A stretch of 64,000 nucleotides of DNA from Caballeronia novacaledonica (GTDB lineage: Bacteria; Pseudomonadota; Gammaproteobacteria; Burkholderiales; Burkholderiaceae). The stretch lies in the NCBI RefSeq assembly GCF_900258035.1, contig NZ_OGTP01000004.1:248001-312000 (forward strand), read 5' to 3'. This document shows, in pieces, positions 28,447 to 50,504 of this stretch (the stretch's first letter is position 1; each line of letters starts with the position of its first letter). A program made the translations under genes and the position numbers. Below the pieces are notes generated by a model. That model did not search any database and was not told the DNA's origin. It was given only the letters and a program-made list of their open reading frames with translations.

Positions 28447-28467
28447 GCCTCCCCGGTTCGGGGGGGC
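28447..28467. repeat. Island palindrome, copy 5
   Basis: GCCTCCCCGGTTCGGGGGG. In the 294-bp divergent promoter region between the aldehyde dehydrogenase and the central acyl-CoA operon, close to copy 6. Confidence 0.6.
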
Positions 28468-28527
28468 CGCTTCGCGGTGGCGCGCCGTCGCCGGGGTTCG
28501 CGAGACGCGAGGCAAGGCAGGACAAAT

Positions 28528-28555
28528 CCCCCCCGAACCGGGTAGGTGGGGCGCC
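28528..28555. repeat. Island palindrome, copy 6
   Basis: CCCCCCCGAACCGGGTAGG followed by TGGGGCGCC, nearly identical in core to copy 1 at 12453. In the same divergent region as copy 5. Confidence 0.65.
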
Positions 28556-28648
28556 TTCGGGACGCACGCATGATGACTTCACTCACTAGCCGCGTACCAA
28601 TCCAAAACGCCGCCCGGTGGCCCGCCAACTACATAGGAGACCCCGTTC

Positions 28649-29788
28649 GTGCAAGTACACCGCACTGTTTTTCGTGAAGACCACGAAATGTTGCGTGAGA
28701 CCGCGCGGCGCTTTTACGAGCGCGAGTGTGTCCCGCGCCAGCAGGCCTGGGATGAGGCCGGGCGTGTCGACCGGGAGGCCTGGCTGAAGGCCGGGCGCGA
28801 AGGCCTGCTGTGCGTGACGATGCCCACCAAATACGGCGGCGGCGGCGGCGACTTCGGCCACGCGGCGGTCGTCCTTGAGGAAATGCACCGCGCCGGCATC
28901 TCGGGTGCGGGGTTCTCGCTGCATTCGGACATCATCGCGCCGTACATCAACCGCCTCGGCACCGAAGAGCAGAAACGGCGCTGGCTGCCGCGCATCTGCG
29001 CGGGCGAGGCGATTCTCGCGATCGGCATTACGGAGCCCGGCGGGGGCTCGGACGTGAAAGCCTGCCGCACGACAGCCGTGCGCGACGGCGACGCGTTCGT
29101 CATTAACGGCAGTAAGACGTTCATCTCGAACGGCATGAGCGCGGACCTGATCGTGCTCGTGTGTAAGACCGATCCTGCCGCGGGCGCGCGGGGCGTGAGC
29201 CTCATCGTCGTCGAGATGGAGCGGCCCGGCGTGCGGCGCGGGCGCAGGCTGCACAAGGTCGGCCAGCCCGCCGCCGACACCGCCGAGCTCTTCTTCGACG
29301 ACGTGCGCGTGCCCGTCGACAACCTGCTCGGCGAACTGAACCAGGGGTTCGGCTACCTGATGCGGGAGTTGGCACAGGAGCGGCTCATCATCGCGCTCTA
29401 TGCGGCCGCGGCGCTGGAGCGGCTGCTCGGCCTTACGCTCGACTACGTAAAGGACCGCAAGGCCTTTGGCCAGACTGTGTGGGATTTCCAGAACACGAAG
29501 TTCAAGCTCGCCGACGTAAAGGCCCAGGCCGTGGCCCTGCGAACGATGGTTGACTACTACCTGGGCGAGCACCTGCGCCGCCGGCTCACGGTCCACGAAG
29601 CGGCGATCGCGAAGCTGCATGCGACCGAGACACTCTGGAAATGCATCGACGACATGGTCCAGCTCCACGGCGGCTACGGCTACATGCTCGAGTATCCCAT
29701 CGCGCGCGCGTTCACCGATTACCGCGTCTCGCGTGTGACGGGCGGTGCGAGCGAAGTAATGCGCGAGCTGATCGCGCGCGAACTGTGA
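28649..29788 (+). CDS. Acyl-CoA dehydrogenase, long-chain/branched type, copy 1
   Basis: A 379-residue flavoenzyme making the first double bond in beta-oxidation and passing electrons to EtfAB. Marks are ITEPGGGSDVKACRTTAVRD, NGSKTFISNG, DYVKDRKAFGQTVWDFQNTK and MVQLHGGYGYMLEYPIARAF. The MCAD catalytic-Glu position is Gly here (TGGASE), while E244 in LAQERLIIAL fits the base position used by LCAD and isovaleryl-CoA dehydrogenase. Start is GTG with AGGAGA upstream. It opens the central plus-strand operon and is a close paralogue of the gene at 38362. A fossil of the same gene's first 30 codons is at 48362. Confidence 0.92.
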   Translation: MQVHRTVFREDHEMLRETARRFYERECVPRQQAWDEAGRVDREAWLKAGREGLLCVTMPTKYGGGGGDFGHAAVVLEEMHRAGISGAGFSLHSDIIAPYINRLGTEEQKRRWLPRICAGEAILAIGITEPGGGSDVKACRTTAVRDGDAFVINGSKTFISNGMSADLIVLVCKTDPAAGARGVSLIVVEMERPGVRRGRRLHKVGQPAADTAELFFDDVRVPVDNLLGELNQGFGYLMRELAQERLIIALYAAAALERLLGLTLDYVKDRKAFGQTVWDFQNTKFKLADVKAQAVALRTMVDYYLGEHLRRRLTVHEAAIAKLHATETLWKCIDDMVQLHGGYGYMLEYPIARAFTDYRVSRVTGGASEVMRELIAREL

Positions 29789-29815
29789 CGACTTGACGAA
29801 ATAACAGGAGAAGCC

Positions 29816-31003
29816 ATGAGTGAAAAAGTAGTGGTATGCGGCGTCGGTATGATCCAGTTTTCGAAACCGGGCGCGAGCCCGAGCTACACCGATATGGGCG
29901 CAGAGGCCGTGCGTTTCGCGCTCGCCGATGCGGGAATCGGCTATGAGAAAGTGCAGCAGGCATTCGCGGGCTACGTGTATGGCGATTCGACCTGCGGCCA
30001 GACGGTCATCTACGAAGTGGGCATGACAGGGATTCCGGTCGTCAATGTCAACAACAACTGCTCGACCGGCTCCACGGCGCTGTATCTCGCACGCCAGGCG
30101 GTTGCATTGGGCGACGCGGACTGCGTGCTCGCGCTCGGCTTCGAGCAGATGCAGTCCGGCGCGCTGAAGTCGCACTGGGACGACCGTCCGCGCACACGCG
30201 CACGTTTCCAGCACGTCGTGGACAGTCTGACGGGTGACGTCGAGGGCCTGCCCGGCGCGCTGCGCAGCTTCGGCGGCGCGGGCCGCGAGCACATGCAGAA
30301 GTACGGTACGAAGATGGAGACCTTCGCGGCGATCCGCGCGAAGGCGAGCCGTCACGCGGCGAACAACCCGCTCGCGCTGTTCAAGAATGTCGTGACGACC
30401 GAAGACGTGATGAACGACAAGGTGATGTGGCCGGGCGTGATGACGCGCCTGATGGCCTGCCCGCCGACCTGCGGCGCGGCCGCCGCGATCATCTGCTCGG
30501 AAGCGTTCGCGAAGAAGCATGGCTTGCGCACCGACGTGCAGATCCTCGCCCAGTCGATGACCACCGATCCAGCCGAATCGTTCGATCCGCCTTCGATGAT
30601 CGCCTATGTCGGCGGCTACATGGCGCGCGCGGCGGCGCAACAGGTCTACGAGAAGTCCGGCTTCGGCCCCGAGGACATTCAGGTTTGCGAACTGCACGAC
30701 TGCTTCGCGCAGAACGAGCTCCTGACGTACGAGGCACTGGGCTTCTGCCGGACCGGCGGCGCGGAGAAGTTCGTGATGGACGGCGACAACACCTATGGCG
30801 GCCGCGTCGTGACGAACCCATCGGGCGGTCTGCTATCGAAGGGCCATCCGCTCGGCGCCACGGGTCTGGCGCAGTGCTACGAGCTTACGCATCAACTGCG
30901 CGGCACGGCTGACCGCCGCCAGGTCGATGGCGTGAAGCTGGCGTTGCAACACAACCTCGGCCTCGGCGGGGCGTGTGTGGTGACGTTGTACGGCAAGAAC
31001 TAA
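29816..31003 (+). CDS. SCP-x-type thiolase, copy 2
   Basis: A 395-residue thiolase strongly similar over its whole length to the one at 23798. The nucleophile C82 lies in NNNCSTGSTALYLARQAV. Other conserved stretches are GGAGREHMQKYGTKMETFAA, CELHDCFAQNELLTYEALGF, GHPLGATGLAQCYELTHQLR and QHNLGLGGACVVTLYG. It cleaves a 3-oxoacyl-CoA to acetyl- or propionyl-CoA and a shortened acyl-CoA. Second gene of the central operon, 27 bp after the acyl-CoA dehydrogenase with AGGAG before its ATG. Two near-identical thiolases suggest either a duplicated operon or two successive cleavage rounds. Confidence 0.92.
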   Translation: MSEKVVVCGVGMIQFSKPGASPSYTDMGAEAVRFALADAGIGYEKVQQAFAGYVYGDSTCGQTVIYEVGMTGIPVVNVNNNCSTGSTALYLARQAVALGDADCVLALGFEQMQSGALKSHWDDRPRTRARFQHVVDSLTGDVEGLPGALRSFGGAGREHMQKYGTKMETFAAIRAKASRHAANNPLALFKNVVTTEDVMNDKVMWPGVMTRLMACPPTCGAAAAIICSEAFAKKHGLRTDVQILAQSMTTDPAESFDPPSMIAYVGGYMARAAAQQVYEKSGFGPEDIQVCELHDCFAQNELLTYEALGFCRTGGAEKFVMDGDNTYGGRVVTNPSGGLLSKGHPLGATGLAQCYELTHQLRGTADRRQVDGVKLALQHNLGLGGACVVTLYGKN

Positions 31004-31063
31004 GAGGGAAGAGCTGGCTGCGGCGCGCGCAGCGGCCAGCTCCGCCGTAAAGGAAAACATGTC

Positions 31064-31894
31064 ATGAACGAGACACTACACAACAAAGTTGCGATCGTCA
31101 CTGGCGCAGGCCGGGGCATCGGGCGCGAAATCGCTCTCAAATTTGCGTGCTCGGGCGTGCGTGTCGTCGTGAACGATCTCGATGCGCAGCCCGCGGGCGA
31201 AGTGGCTGCCGAGATCGAGCGCGAAGGCGGCCTGGCGCTCGCCTTCGCCTGCAACGTAACGGACCCCGACTTCGGCAGGCGTCTGGTCGAGGCCACGCTC
31301 GAGCGTTTCGGCGCGATCGACATCATCGTCAACAACGCTGGCTTCACGTGGGACAACGTGATCCAGAAGATGAGCGACGAGCAGTGGGACGCCGTCCTCG
31401 ATTGCCACCTGAAGGCACCGTTCAACCTGTTGCGCGCGGTGCAGCCGTATTTCCGCGAAATCAGCAAGGCCGAGGCCGAGGCCGGTAAGGAAGTGTTCCG
31501 CAAGGTCGTCAACATCTCGTCGGTCTCTGGCACCGAAGGCAACGCAGGCCAGGTCAACTATTCGGTGGCCAAGGCGGGTGTCATAGGCATGACGAAGACG
31601 CTGGCGCGCGAGTGGTGCCGCATGAAGGTGAACGTGAACTGTGTTGCATTCGGCTTCATCGAAACGCGCCTCACCCAGGCCACCACCGAGGCCAAAACGG
31701 TCAGTATCGATGGCCGCGAGATCAAGGTGGGTCTGCATCCCGACCGCGTCGAGCAAGCCAGCAAGAGCATTCCGCTTGGGCGCCCGGGCAAGCCCGAAGA
31801 GGCCGCGGGTGCGGTCTACATGTTCTGTATTCCTGAGTCAAACCACGTTTCGGGCCAGACGATCATTTGCGGTGGCGGGATCGGCGGCTTCTGA
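31064..31894 (+). CDS. SDR 3-hydroxyacyl-CoA dehydrogenase, copy 1
   Basis: A 276-residue short-chain dehydrogenase. Cofactor motif TGAGRGIG (13-20), NNAG (90-93), catalytic S152/S153 in NISSVSG and Y166/K170 in NYSVAKAG. A distinctive insert (EAEAGKEVFRKVVN) and the C-terminal TVSIDGREIKVGLHPDR are shared with the paralogue at 40509 and, in decayed form, with the fossil at 48455. Its place after the acyl-CoA dehydrogenase and thiolase fits oxidation of a 3-hydroxyacyl-CoA. Third gene of the central operon, 60 bp after the thiolase. Confidence 0.9.
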   Translation: MNETLHNKVAIVTGAGRGIGREIALKFACSGVRVVVNDLDAQPAGEVAAEIEREGGLALAFACNVTDPDFGRRLVEATLERFGAIDIIVNNAGFTWDNVIQKMSDEQWDAVLDCHLKAPFNLLRAVQPYFREISKAEAEAGKEVFRKVVNISSVSGTEGNAGQVNYSVAKAGVIGMTKTLAREWCRMKVNVNCVAFGFIETRLTQATTEAKTVSIDGREIKVGLHPDRVEQASKSIPLGRPGKPEEAAGAVYMFCIPESNHVSGQTIICGGGIGGF

Positions 31895-31992
31895 GCGAGT
31901 CTGCCGGCACCCCTGTCGCGCAAAGCACCAGCGGTCCCGAGAAAGACCGCCTTGGCTCGCCACCGCGAGCCCGCCAATATGGAGACACAGGC

Positions 31993-33561
31993 ATGTACAT
32001 GACGCAGGGATTGCATCGTGGATTGCAGCAGCATCCCGACAAGGAAGCCGTTTGCTTCGAAGGCAAGAACCTGACCTACCGCGAGTTAGGCACGCGCGTG
32101 GCGCGCTTAGCCGGCGCGCTCCAGCAGTTGGGCGTCGAGCGCGGCGAGCGGGTGGCATTTCTGTCCTTCAATTCGGCCCGCTACATCGAGTACTACATGG
32201 CCGTGCCGTGGGCCGGAGCGGTACTCAATCCCGTGAACTATCGCTGGAGCGCGGGCGAGATTCTCTATTCGCTTGACGACTGCGCGACCACGGTGCTGAT
32301 CGTGGATGATCCGTTCGTCGAGACCGCGCAGAAGATGGCCCGCAAGTGCGCAAGCCTGCGCCAGCTGATCTATGCGGGCGACGGTGAAACGCCGCCGGGC
32401 ATGCTGAACTACGAAACGCTCATCGCGCAGACGGAGCCAGTCGAGGACGCCTATCGCCACGGCGACGACCTCGCGGGCATCTTCTACACGGGCGGCACGA
32501 CGGGGGTGCCCAAGGGCGTGATGCTGAGCCATACGAACCTGATCTCGTCATCCTGCAATCAGGGCCTTCTGCGCACGGTCGACAGCGAGATGCGCACACT
32601 CCACGTCATGCCGATGTTTCATCTCGCGTGCTTTGCCTCCATCGTGGGGGTGTTCGTGAACGGGGCGACGCATGTAGCGCTGCGCTCGTACGATCCGCAG
32701 GCGATGCTCGAATGCGTCTCGCGGGATCGCGCGACGCACGTGCTGCTCGCACCCACGATGATTCAGATGGCGCTCGAATGGCTGGAGAGGAATCCGGAGC
32801 ATGCGGCGGCGTTCGATCTGGGCCACATCCGTTCTCTGCGCTACGGGGCGTCGCCGATGACGCCGACCCTGCTCAATCGCACGCGCGCCGCCTTTCCGAA
32901 CTGCGACTTCGGACAGGGCTACGGTATGACCGAGCTCGCGCCGGTTGCGACTCTCTTGACCGCCGAGGACCACAGCGAAGCGGCCATGAAGAGCGGCAAG
33001 ATGTACTCGGTGGGCCGCCCGGTGCCGCTCGTCGAGCTGAAGATTGTTGACGCGGAGGATCGCGAGGTGCCGCGCGGCACGGTTGGCGAAATTGTCGTGC
33101 GCGGACCGAACGTGATGCTCGGCTACTGGAACAAGCCCGAGGCGACGACCGAGGCGCTGCGCGGTGGCTGGATGCACACGGGAGACGGCGGCTACATGGA
33201 TGCGGACGGTTATCTGTTTCTCGTCGACCGCCTCAAGGACATGATCATCAGCGGTGGCGAGAACATCTACTCGGCCGAGGTCGAGAAAGCGCTCGCAGGC
33301 TGCCCGGTGGTCGGGCAATGTGCGGTGATCGGCGTGCCGCATGAGAAGTGGGGCGAATCGGTACATGCCGTCATCGTGCTCAAGCCCGGCGCGAGCGCCA
33401 CGCTGGAGAGCATCCAGAGCCACTGCCGTGAGCTGATCGCGGGCTACAAGATCCCGCGCAGCGTGGACTTTGTCGATGCGCTGCCGATGACGAGCGTCGG
33501 CAAGATCGCGAAGAACGAACTGCGCGCACGCTATCGCAAGCCGACGCCGGTAACCGCCTGA
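31993..33561 (+). CDS. AMP-forming acyl-CoA synthetase, copy 2
   Basis: A 522-residue adenylate-forming ligase. Motifs: P-loop GIFYTGGTTGVPKGVMLSH, GQGYGMTELAPVATLL, MHTGDGGYMDADGYLFLVDR, DMIISGGENIYSAEVEKAL and the catalytic lysine in TSVGKIAKNELRARY. The start at 31993 gives the usual N-terminus (MYMTQGLHRGLQQHPDKEAV) with GGAGA upstream; the longer frame from 31867 reaches back into the SDR gene. Fourth gene of the central operon. It differs clearly from the synthetase at 17641, suggesting a second acid substrate or a side-product acid. Its first 38 codons have a fossil copy at 48725. Confidence 0.92.
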   Translation: MYMTQGLHRGLQQHPDKEAVCFEGKNLTYRELGTRVARLAGALQQLGVERGERVAFLSFNSARYIEYYMAVPWAGAVLNPVNYRWSAGEILYSLDDCATTVLIVDDPFVETAQKMARKCASLRQLIYAGDGETPPGMLNYETLIAQTEPVEDAYRHGDDLAGIFYTGGTTGVPKGVMLSHTNLISSSCNQGLLRTVDSEMRTLHVMPMFHLACFASIVGVFVNGATHVALRSYDPQAMLECVSRDRATHVLLAPTMIQMALEWLERNPEHAAAFDLGHIRSLRYGASPMTPTLLNRTRAAFPNCDFGQGYGMTELAPVATLLTAEDHSEAAMKSGKMYSVGRPVPLVELKIVDAEDREVPRGTVGEIVVRGPNVMLGYWNKPEATTEALRGGWMHTGDGGYMDADGYLFLVDRLKDMIISGGENIYSAEVEKALAGCPVVGQCAVIGVPHEKWGESVHAVIVLKPGASATLESIQSHCRELIAGYKIPRSVDFVDALPMTSVGKIAKNELRARYRKPTPVTA

Positions 33562-33660
33562 TCCGAAGGGGCGAACCTCGCCCTCTTCATTAACCCATCC
33601 GCGAGTGCGGCCTGCGTCATGCGGGCGTGGCCCCTCGTTCTCACCAGAAGGAGAGAGCAG

Positions 33661-34593
33661 ATGCAACTCTATGGAAACATCGAGGTCGATGCCGTTTCGA
33701 CCTGCAGGCACGCCGATTCGCTCAAGTCCACCGACAGCGAGTCCTGGCCGTTCAGCGTGCGGCGCGTGCAGCCCACGATCGGCGCCGAGATCGGCGGCAT
33801 CGACCTGCGCGACCCTCTAACTGACGATCTTTATCTTGCGCTGCGTCGTGCGCTGGTGAAGTTCAAGGTGCTGTTCTTCCGCAACCAGAATATCACGCCC
33901 GCGCAGCACGTAGCGGTGGCGCGCCGCTTCGGCGAGCTGGAGATCCACCCGGTGATCCCGCATCATCCCGATCACCCGGAGCTTTGCGTTTTTGGGCGCA
34001 AGGACGGCAAGCCCGGCCGGGAGAATCTCTATCACTCGGACGTGTCGTGGCGCGAGATCCCGTCGATGGGCTCGATGCTGCGCTGCGTGACCTGCCCCGA
34101 GGTGGGTGGCGACACCATGTGGATCAATATGGTGGCCGCATACGAGAACCTGCCCGAAGACGTCAAGCAGCTGATCGGCAAGCTCCAGGCTGTGCATGAC
34201 GGCCTGCCGGTCTTCAGCCAGGGTCTGAACGCCGAGCAGGTCGAGGGGTATCGCAAGAAGTATCCGCCGATGATTCACCGGGTCGTGCGCACACATCCGG
34301 AAAGTGGCGAGAAGATTCTGTATGTGAACGAGGGCTTCACGACCCACCTCGCGAACTTCACTACGGTGAAGCCGTACCGTTTCGGCTCGGACTTCAAGAT
34401 GGCCGAGATGGACCTGCTGCAGTACCTATTCCGCCAGGCTGCCGCGCCGGAGTATCAGGTGCGCCTGCACTGGCAACCCGACACGATCGCGTTCTGGGAC
34501 AACCGTTCGACGCAGCACTATGCGGTGCAGGACTACTACCCGGCCGAGCGCCAGATGATGCGCGCAACGATTGTTGGCGACAGGGTGTTCTGA
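33661..34593 (+). CDS. TauD/TfdA-family Fe(II)/2-oxoglutarate dioxygenase
   Basis: A 310-residue mononuclear-iron dioxygenase. The iron ligands are H125 and D127 (LYHSDVSW) and H286 (STQHYAVQDYYP); the 2-oxoglutarate-binding arginine is probably R297 or R301 (ERQMMRATI). The N-terminal core has TIGAEIGGIDLRDPL and VLFFRNQNITPAQHVAVARR. Start at 33661 follows AGAAGGAGAG. Family members hydroxylate sulfonates, aryloxyacids, carnitine precursors and acyl chains, giving C-S, C-O or C-H oxidation. Inside an acyl-CoA operon it may hydroxylate a chain or break an ether, a step a plain beta-oxidation operon does not need. Fossil C-terminus at 48839. Confidence 0.9.
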   Translation: MQLYGNIEVDAVSTCRHADSLKSTDSESWPFSVRRVQPTIGAEIGGIDLRDPLTDDLYLALRRALVKFKVLFFRNQNITPAQHVAVARRFGELEIHPVIPHHPDHPELCVFGRKDGKPGRENLYHSDVSWREIPSMGSMLRCVTCPEVGGDTMWINMVAAYENLPEDVKQLIGKLQAVHDGLPVFSQGLNAEQVEGYRKKYPPMIHRVVRTHPESGEKILYVNEGFTTHLANFTTVKPYRFGSDFKMAEMDLLQYLFRQAAAPEYQVRLHWQPDTIAFWDNRSTQHYAVQDYYPAERQMMRATIVGDRVF

Positions 34594-38361: not shown

Positions 38362-39498
38362 ATGAATGTCATCCGCAACATATATCGTGAGGATCACGAA
38401 CAGTTTCGCGCCACCGTGCGGCGCTTCCTTGAAAAGGAATGCGTGCCGCGCCAGGAGAAGTGGCTCGAGAGCGGCATCGTGGATCGTGACGTCTGGCTGA
38501 AGGCCGGTCGCGAAGGGCTGCTGTGCACGGCGCTGCCCGTCGAGTACGGCGGAGGAGGAGGCGATTTCGGCCACGCGGCCGTCATCGCTGAAGAAATGGC
38601 CTATACGGGTTGCAGCGTGTCGTTCGGCCTGCACTCGGACATCGTCGCGCCTTACATCGCGCGCCTCGGCACGGAAGAGCAGAAGCAGAGGTGGCTGCCG
38701 GGCATCTGCGCGGGCGAGACCGTTCTCGCGGTCGCCATCACCGAGCCGGGAGGCGGCTCGGACGTGAAGGCCTGCCGCACAACGGCCGTGCGCGACGGCG
38801 ACGAGTGGGTCATCAACGGCAGCAAGACCTTCATCTCGAACGGCTTCATCTCCGACATGGTGATGGTGGTTTGCAAGACCGACCCGTCGGCGGGCGCCAA
38901 GGGCATCAGCCTCATCATGGTCGAGACCAACCGCGCGGGCTTCCGGCGCGGACGCAAGCTGCACAAGGTCGGAATGCACTCGCAGGACACCGCTGAGCTC
39001 TTCTTCGACGACGTGCGAGTGCCCGTCGGCAATCTTCTCGGCGAGGAGAACAAGGGCTTCCGCTACATGATGCAAGACCTGGCGCAAGAACGCTTCATCA
39101 TCGCGGTGACGGCGGCGGCCAAGGTCGAGCGCCTGCTCGAGCAGACCATCGATTACGTGAAGGACCGCAAGGCCTTCGGCCAGACCGTGTGGGACTTCCA
39201 GAACACGAAGTTCAAGCTGGCCGACGTAAAGGCCCAGTCGGTCGCGATGCGCACGATGGTGGACTACTACCTCGCCGAGCACATGCGCCGGCGTCTGACT
39301 GGCGAGGAAGCCGCGATCGCCAAGCTGCACGCGACCGAGACGATGTGGAAGTGCATTGACGATATGGTGCAGCTCCACGGCGGCTATGGCTACATGCTGG
39401 AATACCCGATCGCACGCGCCTTCGTCGACATGCGCGTGGCGCGCGTGTACGGCGGCAGCAACGAAGTGATGCGCGACATCATCACCCGCAGGATGTGA
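38362..39498 (+). CDS. Acyl-CoA dehydrogenase, long-chain/branched type, copy 2
   Basis: A 378-residue homologue of the gene at 28649 with long identical runs (GTEEQK-RWLP, ITEPGGGSDVKACRTTAVRD, DRKAFGQTVWDFQNTKFKLA, DDMVQLHGGYGYMLEYPIA). The catalytic base is predicted to be E243 in DLAQERFIIA; the MCAD-type position is Gly (YGGSNE). A good AAGGAAGAGGAG site precedes the ATG. It heads the second half of the plus-strand gene run after palindrome copy 7, followed by a hydratase pair and an SDR. Duplication with divergence is likely, one copy per oxidation round. Confidence 0.92.
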   Translation: MNVIRNIYREDHEQFRATVRRFLEKECVPRQEKWLESGIVDRDVWLKAGREGLLCTALPVEYGGGGGDFGHAAVIAEEMAYTGCSVSFGLHSDIVAPYIARLGTEEQKQRWLPGICAGETVLAVAITEPGGGSDVKACRTTAVRDGDEWVINGSKTFISNGFISDMVMVVCKTDPSAGAKGISLIMVETNRAGFRRGRKLHKVGMHSQDTAELFFDDVRVPVGNLLGEENKGFRYMMQDLAQERFIIAVTAAAKVERLLEQTIDYVKDRKAFGQTVWDFQNTKFKLADVKAQSVAMRTMVDYYLAEHMRRRLTGEEAAIAKLHATETMWKCIDDMVQLHGGYGYMLEYPIARAFVDMRVARVYGGSNEVMRDIITRRM

Positions 39499-39588
39499 GT
39501 GCAGGGCGTGAGCACCACCAGGCACCTCACGCAAATCCATTGAACAAGCGGCGCCGGGCTCCGGCGCCAATAATCAGGAGGAGTGGAA

Positions 39589-40035
39589 ATGGCGGATAGC
39601 AGCATGATCGGTCTCGTGACATCGCACGGCACGATCGAAGTGGAGAAGGGGCGCCTGGCATTCTTTGCCAAGGCGATTGGCGAAACCGATCCGGTGTACA
39701 CGGATCTGGCGGCCGCGCGCGACGCGGGCCATCCGACGCTGCCGGTGCCGCCGACGTTTCTCGTGTGCCTGAACGGCGAGGTGGCGCGGCCGTTCAACGT
39801 GCTGGCGAAGCTCAAGCTCGATCTCGCGCGCATTCTGCACGCCGAGCAGGCCTGGACCTATCACCGCATGGCCTATGTGGGCGACACGCTCAGTTTCGAA
39901 ACGAAGATCGACGAAGTCTACGACAAGAAAGGCGGTGCGCTTCACTTCGTGGTGCAGAACACGCGCGTGACAAACCAGAACGGCGAGCACGTGGCGGACC
40001 TGCGTAGCGCGCTTGTCGAACGCAAGATGCAATAA
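39589..40035 (+). CDS. FAS1-like dehydratase/MaoC N-terminal-type hotdog subunit
   Basis: A 148-residue hotdog protein of the MaoC_dehydrat_N (FAS1-like) group: VEKGRLAFFAKAIGETDPVY, TLPVPPTFLVCL, YHRMAYVGDTLSFETKIDEV. Such proteins are the non-catalytic half of heteromeric enoyl-CoA hydratases and pair with a short MaoC protein carrying the Asp/His dyad; that partner is the next gene, 11 bp downstream. The same arrangement (ChsH1 with ChsH2 N-domain) is known from cholesterol side-chain breakdown, where it admits bulky substrates. AGGAGGAG lies just upstream of the ATG at 39589. Confidence 0.88.
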   Translation: MADSSMIGLVTSHGTIEVEKGRLAFFAKAIGETDPVYTDLAAARDAGHPTLPVPPTFLVCLNGEVARPFNVLAKLKLDLARILHAEQAWTYHRMAYVGDTLSFETKIDEVYDKKGGALHFVVQNTRVTNQNGEHVADLRSALVERKMQ

Positions 40036-40046
40036 GGGGAGAACTG

Positions 40047-40466
40047 ATGACTGCACCTCGTTACAACGACGTGAAGATCGGCGACGCGCTGCCGTCGCTC
40101 ACGCTGCCCGCGATCAATCGCACCACGCTTGCGCTCTACGCGGGTGCCTCAGGCGACCACAACCCGATCCACATCGACATCGACTTCGCACGCAAGGCGC
40201 GCATGCCGGATGTGTTCGCACACGGCATGCTGTCAGCCGCCTACCTGGGCCGTCTTGTGGCCGGGTGGGTGCCACAGACGCAGATCCGGAGCCTCGCGAT
40301 CCGCTTCACGGGCATCACGCATGTGGGCAACCAGCCTACCTGCACGGGCGAAGTGGTGGAGAAGTTCGAGGCGGACGGCGAAATGCGCGTGAAGGTCAGC
40401 ATCAAATGCTCGAACCAGTACGGCGAAGACAAGTTGATCGGCGAGGCCGTGGTCGCGCTCGCGTGA
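40047..40466 (+). CDS. MaoC-family (R)-specific enoyl-CoA hydratase, catalytic subunit
   Basis: A 139-residue hotdog hydratase. The catalytic Asp and His are present in LALYAGASGDHNPIHIDIDF, followed by VFAHGMLSAAYLGRLVAGWV and FTGITHVGNQPTCTGEVVEK. It adds water to a 2-enoyl-CoA. The short length and the upstream FAS1-like gene (11-bp gap, GGGGAG site) point to a heteromeric hydratase with a wide substrate channel. The product would go to the SDR encoded 42 bp downstream. Confidence 0.9.
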   Translation: MTAPRYNDVKIGDALPSLTLPAINRTTLALYAGASGDHNPIHIDIDFARKARMPDVFAHGMLSAAYLGRLVAGWVPQTQIRSLAIRFTGITHVGNQPTCTGEVVEKFEADGEMRVKVSIKCSNQYGEDKLIGEAVVALA

Positions 40467-40508
40467 ACCGCCGTGGTGCTTTAACGGAATAATCAAGGAG
40501 CAGAAATA

Positions 40509-41342
40509 ATGAGCAAACTGGCAGGCAAATCAGCCTTGGTGACGGGTTCGGGTCGAGGCATCGGCCGTGAAGTGGCACTGAAGCTGGCGTCGGAAGGCGC
40601 GCGCGTAGTGGTGAACGATCTGGACGCCGAACCGGTCCAGGAAGTCGTCGAGCTGATCCGCTCGGAAGGCGGGGAAGCAGTCGCGTGCGTGGGCAGCGTG
40701 ACGGCGCCCGACTTCGCCGAGCGCTTTGTCAAGACAGCTGTCGACCACTTCAAGGGTATCGACATCATCGTCAACAACGCTGGCTTCACGTGGGACAATG
40801 TGATCCAGAAGATGAGCGACGAGCAGTGGTACGCGATCATCGACTGCCATCTCACCGCGCCGTTCCGCATCCTGCGCGCGGCGCAGCCGGTCATCAGCGC
40901 GGCCGCGAAGGCCGAAGCCGCTGAAGGCCGCGAAGTGTTCCGCAAGATCGTCAACATCTCGTCGGGCGCCGCGGGCGGCAACGTGGGTCAAACGAACTAT
41001 TCGTCCGCCAAGGCAGGTCTTCTCGGCATGACGAAGACGCTCGCGAAGGAATGGGGCCGCCTGAAGGTCAACGTCAACGCCGTCGCGTTTGGCCTGATCG
41101 AGACACGCCTCACGCAGGCACTGGCCGGCGAACAGTCGAAGACCGTGAACATCGAAGGCCGCGAGATCAAGGTGGGCGTGCAGCAGTCGCGCCTCGATAA
41201 CGCGAGCCTGACGATTCCACTCGGCCGCCCGGGCAAAGCGCATGAGGCAGCGGGCTCGGTCTACCTGTTCTGCGTGCCTGAATCGGATTTCCTGTCGGGT
41301 CAGGTTGTATATTGCGGCGGCGGACCCGGCTCGAACTTCTAA
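40509..41342 (+). CDS. SDR 3-hydroxyacyl-CoA dehydrogenase, copy 2
   Basis: A 277-residue SDR, paralogue of the one at 31064. Motifs TGSGRGIG, NNAGFTWDNVIQKMSDEQW, Ser of NISSGAAGG and Tyr-Lys of NYSSAKAGLLGM. The same insert and C-terminal region (IEGREIKVGVQQSRL, GSVYLFCVPES) occur. It likely oxidises the hydroxyacyl-CoA made by the MaoC pair. Strong AAGGAG site before the ATG. A terminator follows at 41372, closing the plus-strand catabolic gene run. Confidence 0.9.
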   Translation: MSKLAGKSALVTGSGRGIGREVALKLASEGARVVVNDLDAEPVQEVVELIRSEGGEAVACVGSVTAPDFAERFVKTAVDHFKGIDIIVNNAGFTWDNVIQKMSDEQWYAIIDCHLTAPFRILRAAQPVISAAAKAEAAEGREVFRKIVNISSGAAGGNVGQTNYSSAKAGLLGMTKTLAKEWGRLKVNVNAVAFGLIETRLTQALAGEQSKTVNIEGREIKVGVQQSRLDNASLTIPLGRPGKAHEAAGSVYLFCVPESDFLSGQVVYCGGGPGSNF

Positions 41343-42809: not shown

Positions 42810-45665
42810 TCAGGCCTGCTTCAGCCTCAACCCCACCATCTCGGGCTCGCGCAGGGCGATCGACATGTCGCGTGCCCGGCCGACTGCCTCGTCGCGGCCG
42901 CTTACGTCGAGCTTGGCGAAAATGTTCTTGAGATGCCACTTCACCGTCTCCGGTGAGACGTTGATGACGCGCGCGATCTTCTTGTTTGGCATGGCTTGTG
43001 CCACTAGGCTGAGCACTTCGATTTCTCGCTCGCTGAGCGCCTCCATCCGTAACGGTTTGCGGTGAGGCGCGGGCATCGGCGCGCGCTTCGATGCCGCCAG
43101 GACGCGACGCACGTAGAACGCGATCACGGGATCCAGGACATCGTCGCGAAGCATTCGGTCGAGCAGGTTCGGCGCAAGCGGTGTTGCGTCGAGCAGCGAG
43201 CGCACGACTCCGGCGCGATGGGCGAGTGTCACGGCCGTGTGCAAATGCGCGCGCGCGGCTGCACCATATCCCCGCGCCTCCTTGGCAACGGCAGCCTGCA
43301 TGTGCAACCCGACCAGACGCCGTCGCTTGTTCGAGCGCGTCGCGCGCTCTAGGAGGTCGTCGATCGCGAGGGACGCGCCGGTATAGTCGTGCTCGCTTAA
43401 CATCACGAGCACACGGCCATGCTCCGCGAGCGCCTCCAGCTCCGCCTTCACGATTTCGCTCGGACCGAGGTGATGCGCCGCGGCTGTCTCGATACGGCGC
43501 AGCGTCGTGTGGGCGAGATCGGTTTCGTCCAGCGCCAGTTGCGTGCGCAGACGCATGATCAGCGAGAACACGATCAGCCGGTCGAGTCCGAGACGGGTGC
43601 CGTGGTCTTCGAGGCGGTCGAGCCAGGCCTGCGCTTCGAGGTGACGCCCGCTGAACCAGTGCGCTCCCGAAAGTGCGAAATGGGCGCGCAGGACGATGTC
43701 GGGGATCGCCGTGCGCTCGAGCAGGTCGATGCGTGGCTCGAGGAGCTTGCCGACGGCGTCGAGCTCGTTCATTTCGTAGAACACATGGCCGAGCGCGCCG
43801 GCCGCCATCGATGCCATCGCAACGAGCGGTGCGCCGGCTTCTTCCGCTTCCTTGAGCACGCCGCGCAGCACCGGCTCGGCCTCATTCGTACGGCCGTCGA
43901 TCATCAACGCAATACCGTTGATGCAGCGGCAGGCGAGCGACTGCATCGGCGCGCCGTGGTGGACGTTGGCAGCGTCGAGGATCTTCCGCATCGATCCGAA
44001 TTCGCCGCGGCACATGTACATCCACGACAGCACCGTGCTGCCGCTCGTCTTCATGCGGTCGGTCGCACCCGGCGGCGCGTCAAGCAGCCGCTCGTGCATC
44101 GCATGGATCGCATCCGGGTCGTCGCGTTGCAGCGCAAGGCCCGCGCGCATCGCATCGAGCGCGTAGCGCTCGTTCGCGTTTGCACGCTGCGCCTTCGACT
44201 CGAGTTGGTGCAGTGTGCACTCGAGCGCCTCGTACTCGCGGGCGTAGAGCTGGAGCTGGCCCGTTGCCATCAGCAGCTGGAAACGCGTCTGTAACAGGGT
44301 GTTGGGCAGGTGGCGCAGAAGTCCGGCGAGCTGGCTCAGGTTGCCGCGAGCCATCAGATCCTCGCAGCAGCCTTCCACCATGTCGGCGGCGGCGGCCGGG
44401 TCGTCGGCCTGCACCGCGTGCTGCACCGACTCGTCGACATAGCCGTGCTCCCCGAACCATTTCCAAGCTGTGGCATGCAAGGCGCGACGACGTTCTTCGG
44501 GCCACGCGCCAAGGCGCTCGAGCAGCACTTCGCGCAGCAGCGGGTGCAGGCGATACCAGGTTTCGCGGTCGTGGCTCGGAATCTGCGCGATGAACAACTC
44601 GTCGGCGTCCATGCGATGCAGCCAGTTCATCTTCTCGGCGACCGCCCCGGAATTTTCCGCGAGACGCGCAGCCAGCGACGCGCAAAAGCGGCTCGTCACC
44701 GCCACGCGCGTTAGCAGGTCGAGATCGTCGGGAGAGAGATGGACGAGCACTTCGCGCTCAAAATAGCTCGCGAAAGCCTGTGCATCGCGTATCCGCACGC
44801 GCGCGTAGGACCCACCGCCCCGCTTGGCCTTCAGGTCGATTGCGAACAGTTGCAGGCCCGCGACCCATCCGTCGGCGAGCTCGTGCAGCGTTTGTGCGTC
44901 GCGCGCCTCGATGGCGCCGAGCTGTTCGCGCAAGAACTGCTCAGACTCCATCGGAGTAAAGCGCAGGTCGTTCAGATCGAATGTGGCCACCATATCGTGT
45001 GCTTCGAGACGGCTAAGCGAGAGAGAGACCGGCCGGCGCGAGCCTAACGCGAGATGCAGCTGTGGCGGCGCGTAGTCGAGCAACCATTGCAGCGCGCGTG
45101 CGATGCGGCTGTCGTCGAGCAGATGGGCGTCGTCGAGCACGAGAACGAGTTCGCGGTCGCGTACGGCAATCGCTTCTACGAGCGTGATGATCCAATGTTC
45201 GGCGGCGGCGAGGTTGTTGTTGTCGCGGCCCATCAGCAAGGTGGCTTCGCTCACGATTGCGATGTCGATCTCGGCGAGGCTCGCGAGCAGGCAGTCGAAA
45301 AAACGCGCGAGCGTGTTGTCCTCGGGCGCGAGCGACAGCCACGCGACGTCGAATTCGTGGCGCATGAGCGCCTTGCGCCATTGCAGAAGCGTCGTTGTCT
45401 TGCCGCTGCCGGCAGGACCGTGAATCAGCACGCAGCGCGCGCGGCGAGCGTCGAAGAGCCGCGCTTCGAGCGAGGCACGAGATATCAGCTTGCGGGCGCC
45501 TCGCGGGGGCATCAGCTTTGCACTGGGCACGTGCTGTCCGCAAAGGGAAGGGACGGCGGGCGCTTGTATGACGGTGTGGACATCGGAAATTCGGCCATCG
45601 TCGACTCGCGCTGCGGGCGCGGATGCCCAGGAAGTCGTGAAGGCGCATTTGTGCAGGGCATTCAC
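42810..45665 (-). CDS. MalT-like LuxR-family ATP-dependent transcriptional activator
   Basis: A 951-residue STAND-type regulator. The N-terminal NTPase has Walker A CVLIHGPAGSGKTTTLLQW and Walker B ELVLVLDDAH. The long middle is helical, TPR/MalT-sensor-like. The C-terminal LuxR helix-turn-helix is LSEREIEVLSLVAQAMPNKK to INVSPETVKWHLKNIFAKL. Such proteins are activated by a small inducer plus ATP and then oligomerise on promoters, so this is the best candidate activator of the acyl-CoA island. GTG at 45665 was chosen because GAGG lies eight bases upstream; a GTG at 45674 is too close to it. Divergent from the TetR gene. Confidence 0.88.
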   Translation of the reverse strand: MNALHKCAFTTSWASAPAARVDDGRISDVHTVIQAPAVPSLCGQHVPSAKLMPPRGARKLISRASLEARLFDARRARCVLIHGPAGSGKTTTLLQWRKALMRHEFDVAWLSLAPEDNTLARFFDCLLASLAEIDIAIVSEATLLMGRDNNNLAAAEHWIITLVEAIAVRDRELVLVLDDAHLLDDSRIARALQWLLDYAPPQLHLALGSRRPVSLSLSRLEAHDMVATFDLNDLRFTPMESEQFLREQLGAIEARDAQTLHELADGWVAGLQLFAIDLKAKRGGGSYARVRIRDAQAFASYFEREVLVHLSPDDLDLLTRVAVTSRFCASLAARLAENSGAVAEKMNWLHRMDADELFIAQIPSHDRETWYRLHPLLREVLLERLGAWPEERRRALHATAWKWFGEHGYVDESVQHAVQADDPAAAADMVEGCCEDLMARGNLSQLAGLLRHLPNTLLQTRFQLLMATGQLQLYAREYEALECTLHQLESKAQRANANERYALDAMRAGLALQRDDPDAIHAMHERLLDAPPGATDRMKTSGSTVLSWMYMCRGEFGSMRKILDAANVHHGAPMQSLACRCINGIALMIDGRTNEAEPVLRGVLKEAEEAGAPLVAMASMAAGALGHVFYEMNELDAVGKLLEPRIDLLERTAIPDIVLRAHFALSGAHWFSGRHLEAQAWLDRLEDHGTRLGLDRLIVFSLIMRLRTQLALDETDLAHTTLRRIETAAAHHLGPSEIVKAELEALAEHGRVLVMLSEHDYTGASLAIDDLLERATRSNKRRRLVGLHMQAAVAKEARGYGAAARAHLHTAVTLAHRAGVVRSLLDATPLAPNLLDRMLRDDVLDPVIAFYVRRVLAASKRAPMPAPHRKPLRMEALSEREIEVLSLVAQAMPNKKIARVINVSPETVKWHLKNIFAKLDVSGRDEAVGRARDMSIALREPEMVGLRLKQA

Positions 45666-45691
45666 GGTTAACACCTCATGACAGCATCAAT

Positions 45692-46740: not shown

Positions 46741-47856
46741 TCAGAATCGATGGGTCATACCGAGGACGCCAAGAATCTGTTTTGTCCCCGTCTGACTGAC
46801 GGTGTTGCCAACCCAGCTCATTGTCGAAGAACCATTGTTCTTGATGAAGCCAGCTCGCAGATATACGCTTGTTCGCTTCGAAAGATTGTGATCGTAGCCG
46901 AACTGAAAACCTAGCGCGTTGTCGTTCTGCGGGGAGCGAACCGCCCGTTCGATGAATGCGAGTTCGATCATATCGGCCGCGCTTGCCTGGATGTTCGCAC
47001 CTGCTTCGATCACACTGAACGAGTGCGCGAGCCCAGCGACGGCGACGGGCGAACCAGTCGGTGCGGTACCCGGCTGCGTGTAAGTGTAGTTGGCCATCAG
47101 TTCCACGATGCCGATGTGGTAGGCGAGCCCGGCCACGTATTGCGTGGTGCCCGGAAGAGAAACCGGCACGGGGGCGAGCGCGGTCGTTTGAGAGCCGTGC
47201 TGGTACTTGTAGCCAAGGCCCACGTACAGGTCGCCGATCGTATAGTTCAGGCCCACATTGAGCATGTTGCCAGTCGTGCCGGGCAATGGGACGTTGGTGG
47301 ACCCCGATAGTGCATACATCGCATACAGCTTGGCCCCGTAGAGGTTCGGCGACTGGTACATCACCGAATTGCTGCTGCGGCCCGTTGCGAACTGAGTAGC
47401 GAGCGTCGAGCGATCGAAGGCGAGCAGCGCTGCGGCGAGCGGCGAAAGCAACTCGTTCGCAAAGAATGGTTCGGTCGGATAAATCGCGTAGAAAGAGGGC
47501 TGATACTGACGTCCAAAGGTCAACGCGCCATACCTCGCATCGTTGAGGCCCACCCATGCCTGCCGATAGAACATCGTCGTGCTGTCGGCGAAAAACCCGC
47601 CGTTATTGGTCGTGAAGCCATTTTCGAGCGTGAAGATTGCACGCAGGCCATCACCGAGGTCCTCGCTTCCGCGCAGACCGAATGCGGACGCCGACGAGCC
47701 TCCGCTTCGCTCCGAGAAAGAATGGGTGCCCCCCCCGCTCAAATACTGCGCGAAGACGTCGACGGTTCCATACAGCGTGACACTCGACTGCGCCGCCGCG
47801 CTGCCCGCCGCGACGAAGAGCGCGGCGCCGCAAATACCGTGTTTCATGAAACGCAT
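46741..47856 (-). CDS. Gram-negative porin (Burkholderia OmpC-like)
   Basis: A 371-residue outer-membrane porin with an N-terminal signal peptide (MRFMKHGICGAALFVAAGSA, cleaved after AAAQ), then SSVTLYGTVDVFAQYL, the standard beginning of betaproteobacterial trimeric porins. Also typical are SAFGLRGSEDLGDGLRAIFT, the alternating beta-strand pattern and the terminal Phe (GVLGMTHRF). ATG at 47856 follows GAGGAGA; the longer frame from 47994 is not coding. Beside the island it probably provides outer-membrane entry of the substrate. Confidence 0.92.
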   Translation of the reverse strand: MRFMKHGICGAALFVAAGSAAAQSSVTLYGTVDVFAQYLSGGGTHSFSERSGGSSASAFGLRGSEDLGDGLRAIFTLENGFTTNNGGFFADSTTMFYRQAWVGLNDARYGALTFGRQYQPSFYAIYPTEPFFANELLSPLAAALLAFDRSTLATQFATGRSSNSVMYQSPNLYGAKLYAMYALSGSTNVPLPGTTGNMLNVGLNYTIGDLYVGLGYKYQHGSQTTALAPVPVSLPGTTQYVAGLAYHIGIVELMANYTYTQPGTAPTGSPVAVAGLAHSFSVIEAGANIQASAADMIELAFIERAVRSPQNDNALGFQFGYDHNLSKRTSVYLRAGFIKNNGSSTMSWVGNTVSQTGTKQILGVLGMTHRF

Positions 47857-48164
47857 TCGTGTCTCCTCTTTCTCATTTTTGGGGCCTGCTGGGGTGGGAA
47901 GAAGGCGAAGCATCCAGCGCGCGAGTGCCTTTAACTGGACAGAGCGGCTGCTCCGAGGCGCCCGTGCGCGATGTTTTGGCTCAGTAGTCTGCAACGATCA
48001 CGGAGCGCGCCACGCCGCCCTGCGCAGTTCATCGGGCGCGTCATTGACCCGCGCGAGCGGCAGACGCCGCGAGATCATTGCCTCGAAGCAGCGCTGTCTG
48101 TTCACGTGGAACGAAATACGGCGTGACCGTGGTTCGTAAGCTAAAGGGGGGGTGGTAGGCACAC

Positions 48165-48186
48165 GCCTCCCCGAAACGGGGAGGGC
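48165..48186. repeat. Island palindrome, copy 8
   Basis: GCCTCCCCGAAACGGGGAGG: perfect 8-bp arms (CCTCCCCG and CGGGGAGG) around AAA, the most regular family member. Confidence 0.7.
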
Positions 48187-48243
48187 GGGTTATCCCGGGC
48201 GCGTTTTTTGTTTCGTGACGGGGCGGGGAGTGGTTGGACCTTT

Positions 48244-48265
48244 CCCCCCAAACCGGGTAGGCGCC
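48244..48265. repeat. Island palindrome, copy 9
   Basis: CCCCCCAAACCGGGTAGGC followed by GCC. Same core as copies 1 and 6; 97 bp before the fossil acyl-CoA dehydrogenase. Confidence 0.6.
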
Positions 48266-48361
48266 TTCCCTTGCCGGGTGGTCCATCATGACCACGACCT
48301 TGCGACGCAGTTTTTTTCCAGCGCCGGCTGTCGCGTCAAATCTAGGGAACTCGTCGCTCAG

Positions 48362-48454
48362 TTGAACCGCACCGTGTCCCGCGAAGACCGTCGGACCCTC
48401 CGCGAAACGGTGCACTGCTTCTTTGAACGCGAGTGCGCGCCGCGCCTCACGCGG
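48362..48454 (+). pseudogene. Fossil acyl-CoA dehydrogenase N-terminus
   Basis: Encodes NRTVSREDRRTLRETVHCFF and ERECAPRL, matching residues 5-30 of the enzyme at 28649 (HRTVFREDHEMLRETARRFY, ERECVPRQ). The reading frame then runs without a break into SDR C-terminal sequence, so the rest of this gene, the thiolase and the first two thirds of the SDR were removed by deletion. Confidence 0.8.
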
Positions 48455-48660
48455 TCGACGACCGTCGAGAAGATGGCCAGCATCGACGGTCTTTACATCG
48501 AGATCGGCGTGCATCCCGACCAGATCGTCCGGGACGGAAAGGAACTTGCGTTGATTTGGCCCGACCGGTGTGGGGCAGGGTCCGTGTACCTATTCTGATC
48601 CCTCTGTCTAACTACCTAATGGGCCCGAGGCTGATCTCCGGAAGCGAACGCGGAGGCTTC
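48455..48660 (+). pseudogene. Fossil SDR C-terminus
   Basis: Reads KMASIDGLYIEIGVHPDQI, then GAGSVYLF, matching TVSIDGREIKVGLHPDRV and AAGAVYMFC of the SDR at 31064. After a frameshift near 48593 it continues LIPLSNYLMGPRLISGSER with GGF, matching CIPESNHVSGQTIICGGG with GGF. After the end, the bases AAAGCACC and GCGGTC echo the intergenic region between the intact SDR and synthetase genes. Confidence 0.78.
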
Positions 48661-48724
48661 CGAACCCGAAAGCACCCCGCGGTCGCGGCCGCAGCGTGGG
48701 TAAAAACAAGACGGAGGCACTCCT

Positions 48725-48838
48725 TTGCGTGTGAGTCAGGCGTTACATCGTTCGATCAAACAGCGTCCCAACAAGGTTCCGACTCGCTTCCGGCGAAGGG
48801 ACCAGACCGATCTTCGGCTAGGCGACTTTGTCCACGTC
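48725..48838 (+). pseudogene. Fossil acyl-CoA synthetase N-terminus
   Basis: From a TTG or equivalent start after GGAGG, MRVSQALHRSIKQRPNKVP matches MYMTQGLHRGLQQHPDKEA of the synthetase at 31993, and LRLGDFV aligns with REL-GTRV. The frame goes straight into dioxygenase C-terminal sequence, so about 480 codons of the synthetase were deleted. Confidence 0.72.
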
Positions 48839-48904
48839 TGGCCGCAACACTATGCGGTGCAGGACCGTTACCCTGGGGGACGGCCCATGATGCGCGACCC
48901 TCAT
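48839..48904 (+). pseudogene. Fossil TauD/TfdA dioxygenase C-terminus
   Basis: WPQHYAVQDRYPGGRPMMRD matches STQHYAVQDYYPAERQMMRA of the dioxygenase at 33661, including the distal iron-ligand His. The order ACAD, SDR, synthetase, dioxygenase is that of the intact operon at 28.6-34.6 kb. Confidence 0.8.
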
Positions 48905-48959
48905 CGGCAACTAGCCGTTTTACGCGGCGCGTTTCAGCTTCGTGTGCAAGGAGAGTGCG

Positions 48960-49685
48960 ATGAATAGACGCAAACCCGTGATGCAGTTTCTCATCGCCTT
49001 TGCGGCGCTCCTGACATTTCTATGTGGACTCGGCATCTGCTGCCTGTTGATGGTGCAGGACGAAATCGTGCATGTGGCGGCGTGGCGCGAGACCTGGCTG
49101 CCTGCTGTACGCGCGACCCTCGAGATGCGCGCTGATCTCAGGGGCGTGCGTCTTGCAGAATTCCGTCTCGCGACGCACTGCGAGACGGATCTGTCTGTCG
49201 CCGCCGAGCGGGCCGACGCGTTGCTCTCTCATATCCGGCGCGCGGCTCAAGCCTGGAAGGAAGAGAACGAGCGAATCGGGCGCAACCCCGTATTTGACGA
49301 TCTAACGGCGCGCATCGCGCATTACCTCGAGCTGGATCGTCAGGTGCGCACCCTCGCTGTGCAGAGCCGCGAGCATGAAGCGCTGGCACTGCTGGCCGGT
49401 GCGGCAAACGTGGAAGGCGAGGTGATCGAGGCAGATCTGGACTTGCTCGAGGAGCAGGGCCGCAGTGCGACACAACTCGAGGCGCGCGCGGCCGGGAGGA
49501 TCTATGGGTATCTGTTCGCTATGGTGACGGGCCTGTTGGTCGCCGTTATGCTGATCGCGCTCGCAGTTGTCCTTATCATCGTTCGAAGCATGGCCGCTCA
49601 GCAGGGAAATGCGCGCGCCGACAGCGCGCCTGCCACGGGCGTTCCCTCGACGTTTCGATATCCAGCACGGCGTGCCGACAACTGA
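48960..49685 (+). CDS. Membrane sensor with chemoreceptor-like four-helix-bundle domain, no output domain
   Basis: A 241-residue protein with membrane helix 1 at about 9-31 (FLIAFAALLTFLCGLGICCL), a periplasmic helical domain (about 35-180, with RETWLPAVRATLEMRADLRG, ELDRQVRTLAVQSREHEALA and EEQGRSATQLEARAAGR) like the 4HB_MCP sensor domain, and membrane helix 2 at about 184-208. Only about 30 cytoplasmic residues follow, so there is no HAMP or signalling domain. ATG at 48960 has AAGGAGAG eight bases upstream. It is either a C-terminally truncated chemoreceptor or a stand-alone sensor acting through a partner. Confidence 0.7.
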   Translation: MNRRKPVMQFLIAFAALLTFLCGLGICCLLMVQDEIVHVAAWRETWLPAVRATLEMRADLRGVRLAEFRLATHCETDLSVAAERADALLSHIRRAAQAWKEENERIGRNPVFDDLTARIAHYLELDRQVRTLAVQSREHEALALLAGAANVEGEVIEADLDLLEEQGRSATQLEARAAGRIYGYLFAMVTGLLVAVMLIALAVVLIIVRSMAAQQGNARADSAPATGVPSTFRYPARRADN

Positions 49686-50255
49686 GGCGTCCTCCACGCC
49701 GCAACTGGTTTTCGGGTGCCCCCGGCGTTCCGGCCATTCCAACGTCTTGGCTTCACTGCCGAGCCAATAGATGTGGCGAGTGCCCACCACCCACGTGCGC
49801 GGCAGCGGCGTCGGAATGCAGTCGCGTCGCAACTGTGCATCGCGGTCGAGATCTCGGCTGCGACCCAGCATCTGGGTGGCTCGATTTGTTCTTTGAACTC
49901 GCAGGGGCGCCAGTCGTCACCAGGTAGTTCGGTTGTTCAGGTGGCCGCCGCTTTTTGGATGCGAGCATCCGGCGTCGAGTTCCAGGGCTGAGTCGGACTT
50001 CCGCCGACAAGCGACGACCACGGCGCTCTTGCAGGCCTAGTCGCTTCGATATATAAGCCGGCTGAGCTGAATTCAATCGGCCGGCTTCCTTCTTTTTCGG
50101 TGTCGGACAAGGCCGATTTTTTTACATAAATCTACTTGTCCCCGTTTTCAAGCGGGCAGTGTGAGATTGGGTAAGTAGGGAGTCCAGGCCCGCAGGGATC
50201 GTTGCACGCGAGAGAGGAAAGGAGAAGGATTAAATCCTACTTACCGGAGGCTGGC
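49686..50255. other. Gene-free region
   Basis: No reliable gene. Frames on both strands (for example 49753-50076 minus) lack family features. It contains a terminator-like hairpin at 50055. The last 80 bases are purine-rich and lead into the ParD gene. Confidence 0.5.
50055..50098 (+). terminator. Terminator-like hairpin
   Basis: Stem AAGCCGGC (50055-50062) with GCCGGCTT (50080-50087), 17-nt loop, then CCTTCTTTTT. Oriented to end plus-strand transcripts coming from the sensor gene. Confidence 0.6.
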
Positions 50256-50504
50256 ATGAGAACGACCCAGCAAATGAGCATCACTTTACCCAACGAGATG
50301 GCCGAGTTTGTGCGCACAAACGTCGCAAGCGGCGATTACGCGTCTGACAGCGAAGTGCTGAGAGACGCGCTTCGCGCGCTCCGCGAGCGTGACCGTGCCG
50401 TCGAAGCGTGGCTGCGAAACGAAGTCGTCCCTACAGCGCAAGCAGGGCTGCGGATAGCCAGAACGTGTCAACGCCGAGATCGGCCACGAGCGGTCAGGTG
50501 TTGA
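50256..50504 (+). CDS. parD: ParD-family antitoxin, orphan
   Basis: An 82-residue ribbon-helix-helix antitoxin. The N-terminal DNA-binding ribbon and helices are TTQQMSITLPNEMAEFVRT and YASDSEVLRDALRALRERDR, followed by AVEAWLRNEVVP as in typical ParD/CopG antitoxins. The residues after about 65 (RIARTCQRRDRPRAVRC) do not look like the usual tail that wraps ParE, so the 3' end may be frameshifted. No ParE-type toxin frame follows on the same strand. CGGAGG precedes the ATG. Confidence 0.75.
   Translation: MRTTQQMSITLPNEMAEFVRTNVASGDYASDSEVLRDALRALRERDRAVEAWLRNEVVPTAQAGLRIARTCQRRDRPRAVRC

Follow-up and report, generated by a model that had tools for sequence, protein, structure and literature searches.

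Gene Remnants at the Locus

The stretch of DNA analyzed here (the window) comprises 64,000 nucleotides of a Caballeronia novacaledonica contig. It carries an intact catabolic operon, hereafter operon A, with genes for an acyl-CoA dehydrogenase (ACAD), a thiolase, an SDR, an acyl-CoA synthetase (ACS) and a TauD dioxygenase. At 48359–48895 of the plus strand, the start of an ACAD gene, the end of an SDR gene, the start of an ACS gene and the end of a TauD gene were found one after another, in the gene order of operon A (28649–34593). These remnants, their neighbors and the intact counterpart are listed in Table 1.

Table 1. Intact and fossil features of the window discussed in the text.
Feature	Position	Strand	Basis or remark
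Intact operon A with two operators: ACAD, thiolase, SDR, ACS, TauD	28448..34593	+	
MalT-like LuxR regulator, candidate binder of the palindromes	42810..45674	-	TPR_MalT and GerE
Intact porin, 371 aa, divergent neighbor, proposed present user of the operators	46744..47856	-	Porin_4, E 5e-50
Putative C-terminal remnant of a Zn-dependent alcohol dehydrogenase (ADH), about 47 codons, frame-broken, divergent to the operon	47981..48123	-	
Candidate operator palindrome 1: CCTCCCCG AAA CGGGGAGG	48166..48184	.	Perfect match to CCTNCCCGNNNCGGGNAGG, of which the genome has 3
Candidate operator palindrome 2, less perfect	48243..48261	.	Upstream alignment
Fossil ACAD N-terminus	48359..48445	+	tblastn and profile
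Joint 1: CGCGCC	48441..48446	+	Single copy in fossil
Fossil SDR C-terminus, frame-broken, stop lost	48443..48660	+	tblastn, profile, DNA match
Fossil ACS N-terminus, GGAGG ahead	48725..48823	+	tblastn and profile
Fossil TauD C-terminus, 12-bp gap relative to A, frame change ahead of the last codons	48824..48914	+	
Probable ETF alpha scrap (FAD-binding end)	49821..49880	+	DNA match

The proteins of operon A were used as tblastn queries against 48000–49100. Residues 2–30 of the ACAD matched with 62% identity over 29 aa (E = 4e-9), residues 285–301 of TauD with 76% over 17 aa (E = 1e-5) and residues 3–33 of the ACS with 35% over 31 aa (E = 0.002), while the thiolase had no match in this target at E 0.3. 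The SDR match reached 48.9 bits (E = 6e-12), a score that is inflated because the alignment also extends back across the ACAD piece, the true SDR part being residues 202–254. The original prediction, made by reading the sequence, had named these four pieces in the order of the intact operon. All four were recovered, with tblastn scores (41.2, 48.9, 25.4 and 30.8 bits for ACAD, SDR, ACS and TauD) above the best of 500 shuffles of 48362–48904 (26.2, 23.5, 24.6 and 25.8 bits), in the case of ACS by a thin margin. Profile HMMs built from relatives gave 30.1 bits for ACAD (with the fossil's own row taken out of the profile), 18.4 for SDR, 26.6 for ACS and 14.4 for TauD, compared with 12.1, 9.8, 8.5 and 10.0 bits for the best of 500 dinucleotide shuffles. 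Profile matches with E below 0.1 across the six frames of the window were limited to the intact genes and the fossil, except that the ACS profile also matched one further ligase ORF. When the sequence was reversed as a control, tblastn matches as strong as those of the ACS, the SDR tail and the ETF scrap did turn up, so the ACS piece rests on its profile, the SDR tail on profile and DNA matches, and the ETF scrap on its DNA match; GC-rich out-of-frame matches, alike in the real and the reversed sequence, were left out. At the DNA level, the fossil SDR (48456–48660) is 68% identical to the SDR gene of G393, a genome from another genus of the family (E = 1e-14), and the fossil TauD piece is 78% identical to operon A over 54 bp.

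With lengths of 17 to about 70 codons, the pieces might be suspected to be chance similarities or artefacts of assembly. However, each of the four pieces beats 500 of 500 shuffles and they stand in the right order, the fossil is far from the contig ends (at 296 kb of 364 kb), and with an identity to operon A of about 63% it cannot come from misassembling A. The shuffles, the piece order and this identity rule out both explanations, to which we give practically no probability. As in an operon pseudogene, several pieces are homologous, in order, to an intact operon, and truncated genes and broken frames exclude any full product.

A further remnant was detected on the minus strand. The sequence 48123–48019 matches the ADH beside TauD in genome G138 (locus L133) with 46% identity over 35 aa (E = 1e-4 among 170 sequences, and E = 0.002 when the same match was searched against the whole window), and its tail, GGVARSVIVADY followed by a stop, runs in another frame to 47981, compared with GELARSVIVFDS. 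In the window, out-of-frame GC-rich stretches outscored the stub because the query carried a long non-ADH extension. No sequence in the PDB matches the piece, and it has no second place in its own genome, whose closest ADH is 40% identical to that of G138. In G138, an operator-like site (3 mismatches, L133:7675) is located about 113 bp ahead of the ADH start. The piece is short, and we assign it as an ADH stub with moderate confidence. Together with the operon pieces it suggests a dead divergent pair, with an ADH opposite ACAD-thiolase-SDR-ACS-TauD, an arrangement comparable to that of operon A and the aldehyde dehydrogenase facing it. Beyond the TauD piece, 49821–49880 is probably a short fossil scrap of ETF alpha, with 82% identity to 14092–14146 of the ETF-alpha gene along 55 bp (E = 3e-9 in the window and 4e-7 in the genome).

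Joints, Reading Frames and Mini-ORFs

The hexamer CGCGCC at joint 1 occurs in operon A at 28734–28739 (ACAD) and at 31665–31670 (SDR), 2931 bp apart. Because both deletion ends carry it when read on operon A (rather than on the lost ancestor), this joint probably arose when a segment between short direct repeats was lost. Joint 2 connects ACS (near 32091 in operon A) with TauD (near 34480), a distance of about 2.4 kb in A. Two large internal deletions, as originally proposed, explain the two joints, but that they account for everything is not supported: the divergent ADH has also lost most of its length, TauD has its 12-bp gap, and SDR, TauD and ADH have changed frame. The fossil SDR tail reads IPLSNYLMGPRLISGSERGGF (vs. 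IPESNYVTGQTLICGGGRGGF in G393) and continues in another frame to 48660, with the stop codon gone. Most of what had been described as an intergenic echo is this frame-shifted tail, after which a short echo of the spacer between SDR and ACS of operon A can be recognized by eye. The fossil TauD ends in another frame with ATLIGN and a stop, while TauD of operon A ends with ATIVGDRVF and a stop.

The two ORFs of 148 and 80 codons that had been reported as chimeras are present in the fossil, but because the SDR and TauD tails are in other frames, the in-frame joints yield no clean fusion proteins. The start of the first ORF, at 48152, precedes the first palindrome, and the ORF ends where the SDR frame is lost; the second keeps GGAGG and has TTG where the ACS would start. 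That they are expressed and selected small proteins could be argued from the two in-frame joints and from the GGAGG and TTG of the second ORF, but the frames break past the joints and the first ORF begins ahead of the operators. Furthermore, a search among about 5.8 billion proteins gave no homologue at E 0.1 for one mini-ORF and no candidate at all for the other, and a Pfam search returned no family for either; on these two results the small-protein explanation was rejected, and we consider it extremely improbable. Given the frame changes in SDR, TauD and ADH, the mini-ORFs are very probably not functional proteins.

Palindromes Upstream of the Remnants

As had been noted, two palindromes precede the fossil in the way that two precede the intact operon. 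The two members of the pair are 77 bp apart in the fossil and 80 bp apart in operon A, and the distance from the proximal palindrome to the ACAD start is 113 bp in the fossil (measured to the place aligned with the start codon of A) vs. 121 bp in A. The 19-bp consensus, CCTNCCCGNNNCGGGNAGG, is found ahead of five gene sets of the window, the fossil among them: at 12453 (ETF genes), 23618 (thiolase at 23774), 28448 and 28528 (operon A), 38213 (a second ACAD set), and 48166 and 48243 (fossil). Further copies occur at 15094 and, weaker, at 23141. In the 6.78-Mb genome there are three perfect copies of the consensus, all within the window and one of them in the fossil, whose perfect match is partly by construction since the consensus was drawn from window copies that include it. 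Seven of the ten sites with at most one mismatch genome-wide fall in the window, and sites with at most two mismatches are hardly commoner genome-wide than those of the reversed control (45 vs. 38). Similar pairs are located ahead of A-type (ACAD-thiolase-SDR) operons in G138 and G314, so that the palindrome precedes further gene sets of the island as well as related operons. With this motif and placement, the palindromes are very likely the operators of the island's regulon.

The palindrome sites have changed far less than the fossil genes. Between operon A and the fossil, the palindrome arms are alike at 29 of 32 positions without gaps (P-value = 4e-4) and at 30 of 32 with gaps (P-value = 6e-5; both binomial, treating bases as independent), while the aligned remainder is identical at 147 of 235 positions (63%).

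Relationship of the Fossil to Operon A

The original prediction had called the fossil a third copy of the operon. The locus did once contain an operon with this gene order and regulatory layout, but "third" is a loose count, because the second set of the window (38362–41342) has other genes between its ACAD and SDR. Whether the fossil was made from operon A in this lineage, as a segmental duplicate that then decayed quickly, was judged from gene order, the upstream region and sequence distances (in the different searches, matches from the sister genus were filtered at 45, 40 and 38% identity). The order SDR-ACS-TauD was seen only in operon A and the fossil: the eight other A-type loci read gave no ACS match above 38% identity next to their SDR, and in G314 and G138 an ACS 73% like that of A sits in a second, divergent arm. 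The upstream region of the fossil is also most like that of operon A (z = 7.8, reached by 0 of 300 shuffles, while nine other upstream regions have z of at most 4.5), and a tree with A and the fossil as sisters was not rejected (AU P-value = 0.26, and 0.35 for SDR alone). The short spacer echo recognized by eye also speaks for a copy of A.

The sequences of the genes point the other way. The fossil SDR is 61.5% identical to that of A, and nearer to four of the eight other A-type SDRs (G393, 67.4%; G138, 66.1%; G334, 64.7%; G314, 63.3%), the other four being at 59–60%. The fossil ACAD has fewer differences to seven of nine other genes than to A, and 19 of its 29 third codon positions differ from A, compared with 12–18 from the nine other genes. 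Over 51 positions of TauD, there are 9 and 11 differences to two other copies from the genus Caballeronia and 12 to A.

The end branch of the fossil in the tree is long (0.54 vs. 0.17 for A). Counted by codon positions 1, 2 and 3, the differences between the fossil and A are 14, 11 and 12 for ACS, 5, 8 and 19 for ACAD, and 1, 4 and 7 for TauD; as the ACAD changes are concentrated at third positions, this gene seems to have functioned for a long time before it was wrecked, which speaks against a duplicate of A that decayed quickly. That the fossil is a segmental duplicate of operon A itself is less likely than not. We conclude that the fossil, as far as these comparisons can place it, would be an A-type operon of the same regulon, be it an old paralogue, a separately acquired copy or a duplicate of A.

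No intact operon was found at the place of the fossil in related genomes. A DNA search with the fossil region gave matches at E 1e-5 in 5 of 57 other genomes of the genus, and these covered no more than a short piece of TauD or ACAD; nothing in the plasmid collection matches 48100–49700. Among the best candidates (at most 25 per genome, at an E limit of 1e-100), the ACS of operon A has no counterpart above 54% identity in the same 57 genomes. From 54039 to its end at 64000, the window is colinear at 90% identity with plasmid pNK83 of Caballeronia sp. NK8, and the part before 54039 has one 164-bp match to the compared stretch of this plasmid; since the colinearity begins there, the fossil is near the right edge of the island.

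Three other features of the window were observed. The ORF at 48942–49685 (plus strand, 247 codons) has two likely membrane helices and by eye resembles the sensor half of a chemoreceptor. As a candidate for a further fossil it was rejected, since searches gave neither a family nor a relative in the genome, and the sole homologue of similar length was the ORF itself. A ParD-like antitoxin ORF (PF03693) is located at 50202–50504 on the plus strand. The only Rfam match of the window at gathering scores is an ALIL pseudoknot (RF01497, 105 bits) at 6147–6263 on the minus strand, an element usually linked to IS3-type frameshifting.

Porin and Regulator Next to the Fossil

The intact porin aligns along its full length of 371 aa, with 53–60% identity, in 11 related loci; in two further loci the alignment starts at residue 23 or 27. 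A site with at most three mismatches was detected within 300 bp upstream of the porin start in 4 of 12 related loci (L021, L018, L016 and L130), and L130, which belongs to a second cluster of the same genome, has two such sites; the other eight have none within this distance at this threshold. This count leaves out L009 (28% identity) and L029 (the same record as L129), and for L014 and L016 the position of the porin start is an estimate based on partial alignments. The two fossil sites of the window start 328 and 405 bp away from the porin start, separated from it by the ADH stub, and a search of 47700–49100 revealed no sigma-70-like promoter.

The MalT-like regulator is 52, 49 and 47% identical to regulators near the A-type operons of G393, G138 and G314, respectively, and because of these relatives it is the likely binder of the palindromes. 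The operator arms have stayed far more A-like than the rest of the fossil, most likely because they would still drive the intact porin. Taken by itself, this step, that the operator pair still serves the porin, is a tentative proposal. The operators could instead have been kept by chance, or only as decoys that titrate the regulator, without any role for the porin. The long distance to the porin and the eight of 12 related porins with no recognizable site nearby fit such an explanation, but the arms are alike at 29 of 32 positions against a background of 63%, and the divergent porin is intact and has relatives that share loci with TauD and MalT-like genes elsewhere; we therefore regard decoys or chance as rather unlikely.

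Clusters of this kind were found in Paraburkholderia and Caballeronia, where porin, regulator, TauD and ACAD occur as here, in clusters with TauD, porin, MalT-like and ACAD-thiolase-SDR genes, and some have operator-like sites before the porin. In these clusters the porin faces the regulator gene wherever both were seen, whereas in the window it faces the ACAD operon instead. One of them is in the same genome (contig C59, loci L130 and L171), with TauD, porin and its two operator-like sites, MalT-like regulator, ACAD, thiolase and SDR. The A-type operons of G314, G138 and G393 have the same enzymes and a related MalT-like regulator; the upstream palindromes are clearest in G314 and G138, and the thiolase match of G393 is in two pieces. 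Unlike operon A and the fossil, the loci read there lack an ACS downstream of the SDR.

Discussion

Our analysis indicates that 47981–48914 is quite probably the wreck of a complete A-type operon, destroyed around two palindromes by large internal deletions. A first deletion of about 2.9 kb, as measured on operon A, would have joined ACAD to SDR and taken the thiolase with it, probably by loss between the short repeats CGCGCC. A second, of about 2.4 kb, would have joined ACS to TauD, and a third would have removed most of the ADH. The frame changes in SDR, TauD and ADH would have come in addition. While the genes died, the operators may have survived for the intact porin on the other side. By losing the ADH, the locus may have brought the operator pair before the porin, so that selection on the porin would now keep the operators while the genes are reduced to stubs. 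Such a live regulon switch within a dead operon is a conceivable outcome, which we put forward with caution from sequence evidence.

In bacteria, according to Kuo and Ochman (2010; PMC2916853), broken genes are removed by deletional processes and few highly degraded pseudogenes persist. The fossil is like the pseudogenes described there in consisting of broken genes eroded by deletion; it differs from that description in that a multi-gene operon and its divergent partner have been cut down to gene ends around a preserved operator pair. A literature search of titles and abstract openings returned nothing on this locus or regulon. The locus is a true operon fossil, ordinary in kind and unusual in its well-preserved operator pair.

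The locus is a warning that in-frame chimeric ORFs can be debris. Within one kilobase it displays how a catabolic operon can die: large deletions spare the ends of genes, reading frames are broken, and the regulatory sites persist longer than the genes. Should these operators still act for the porin, the locus would be a testable case of promoter sites kept for a neighbor after their own operon has been lost.
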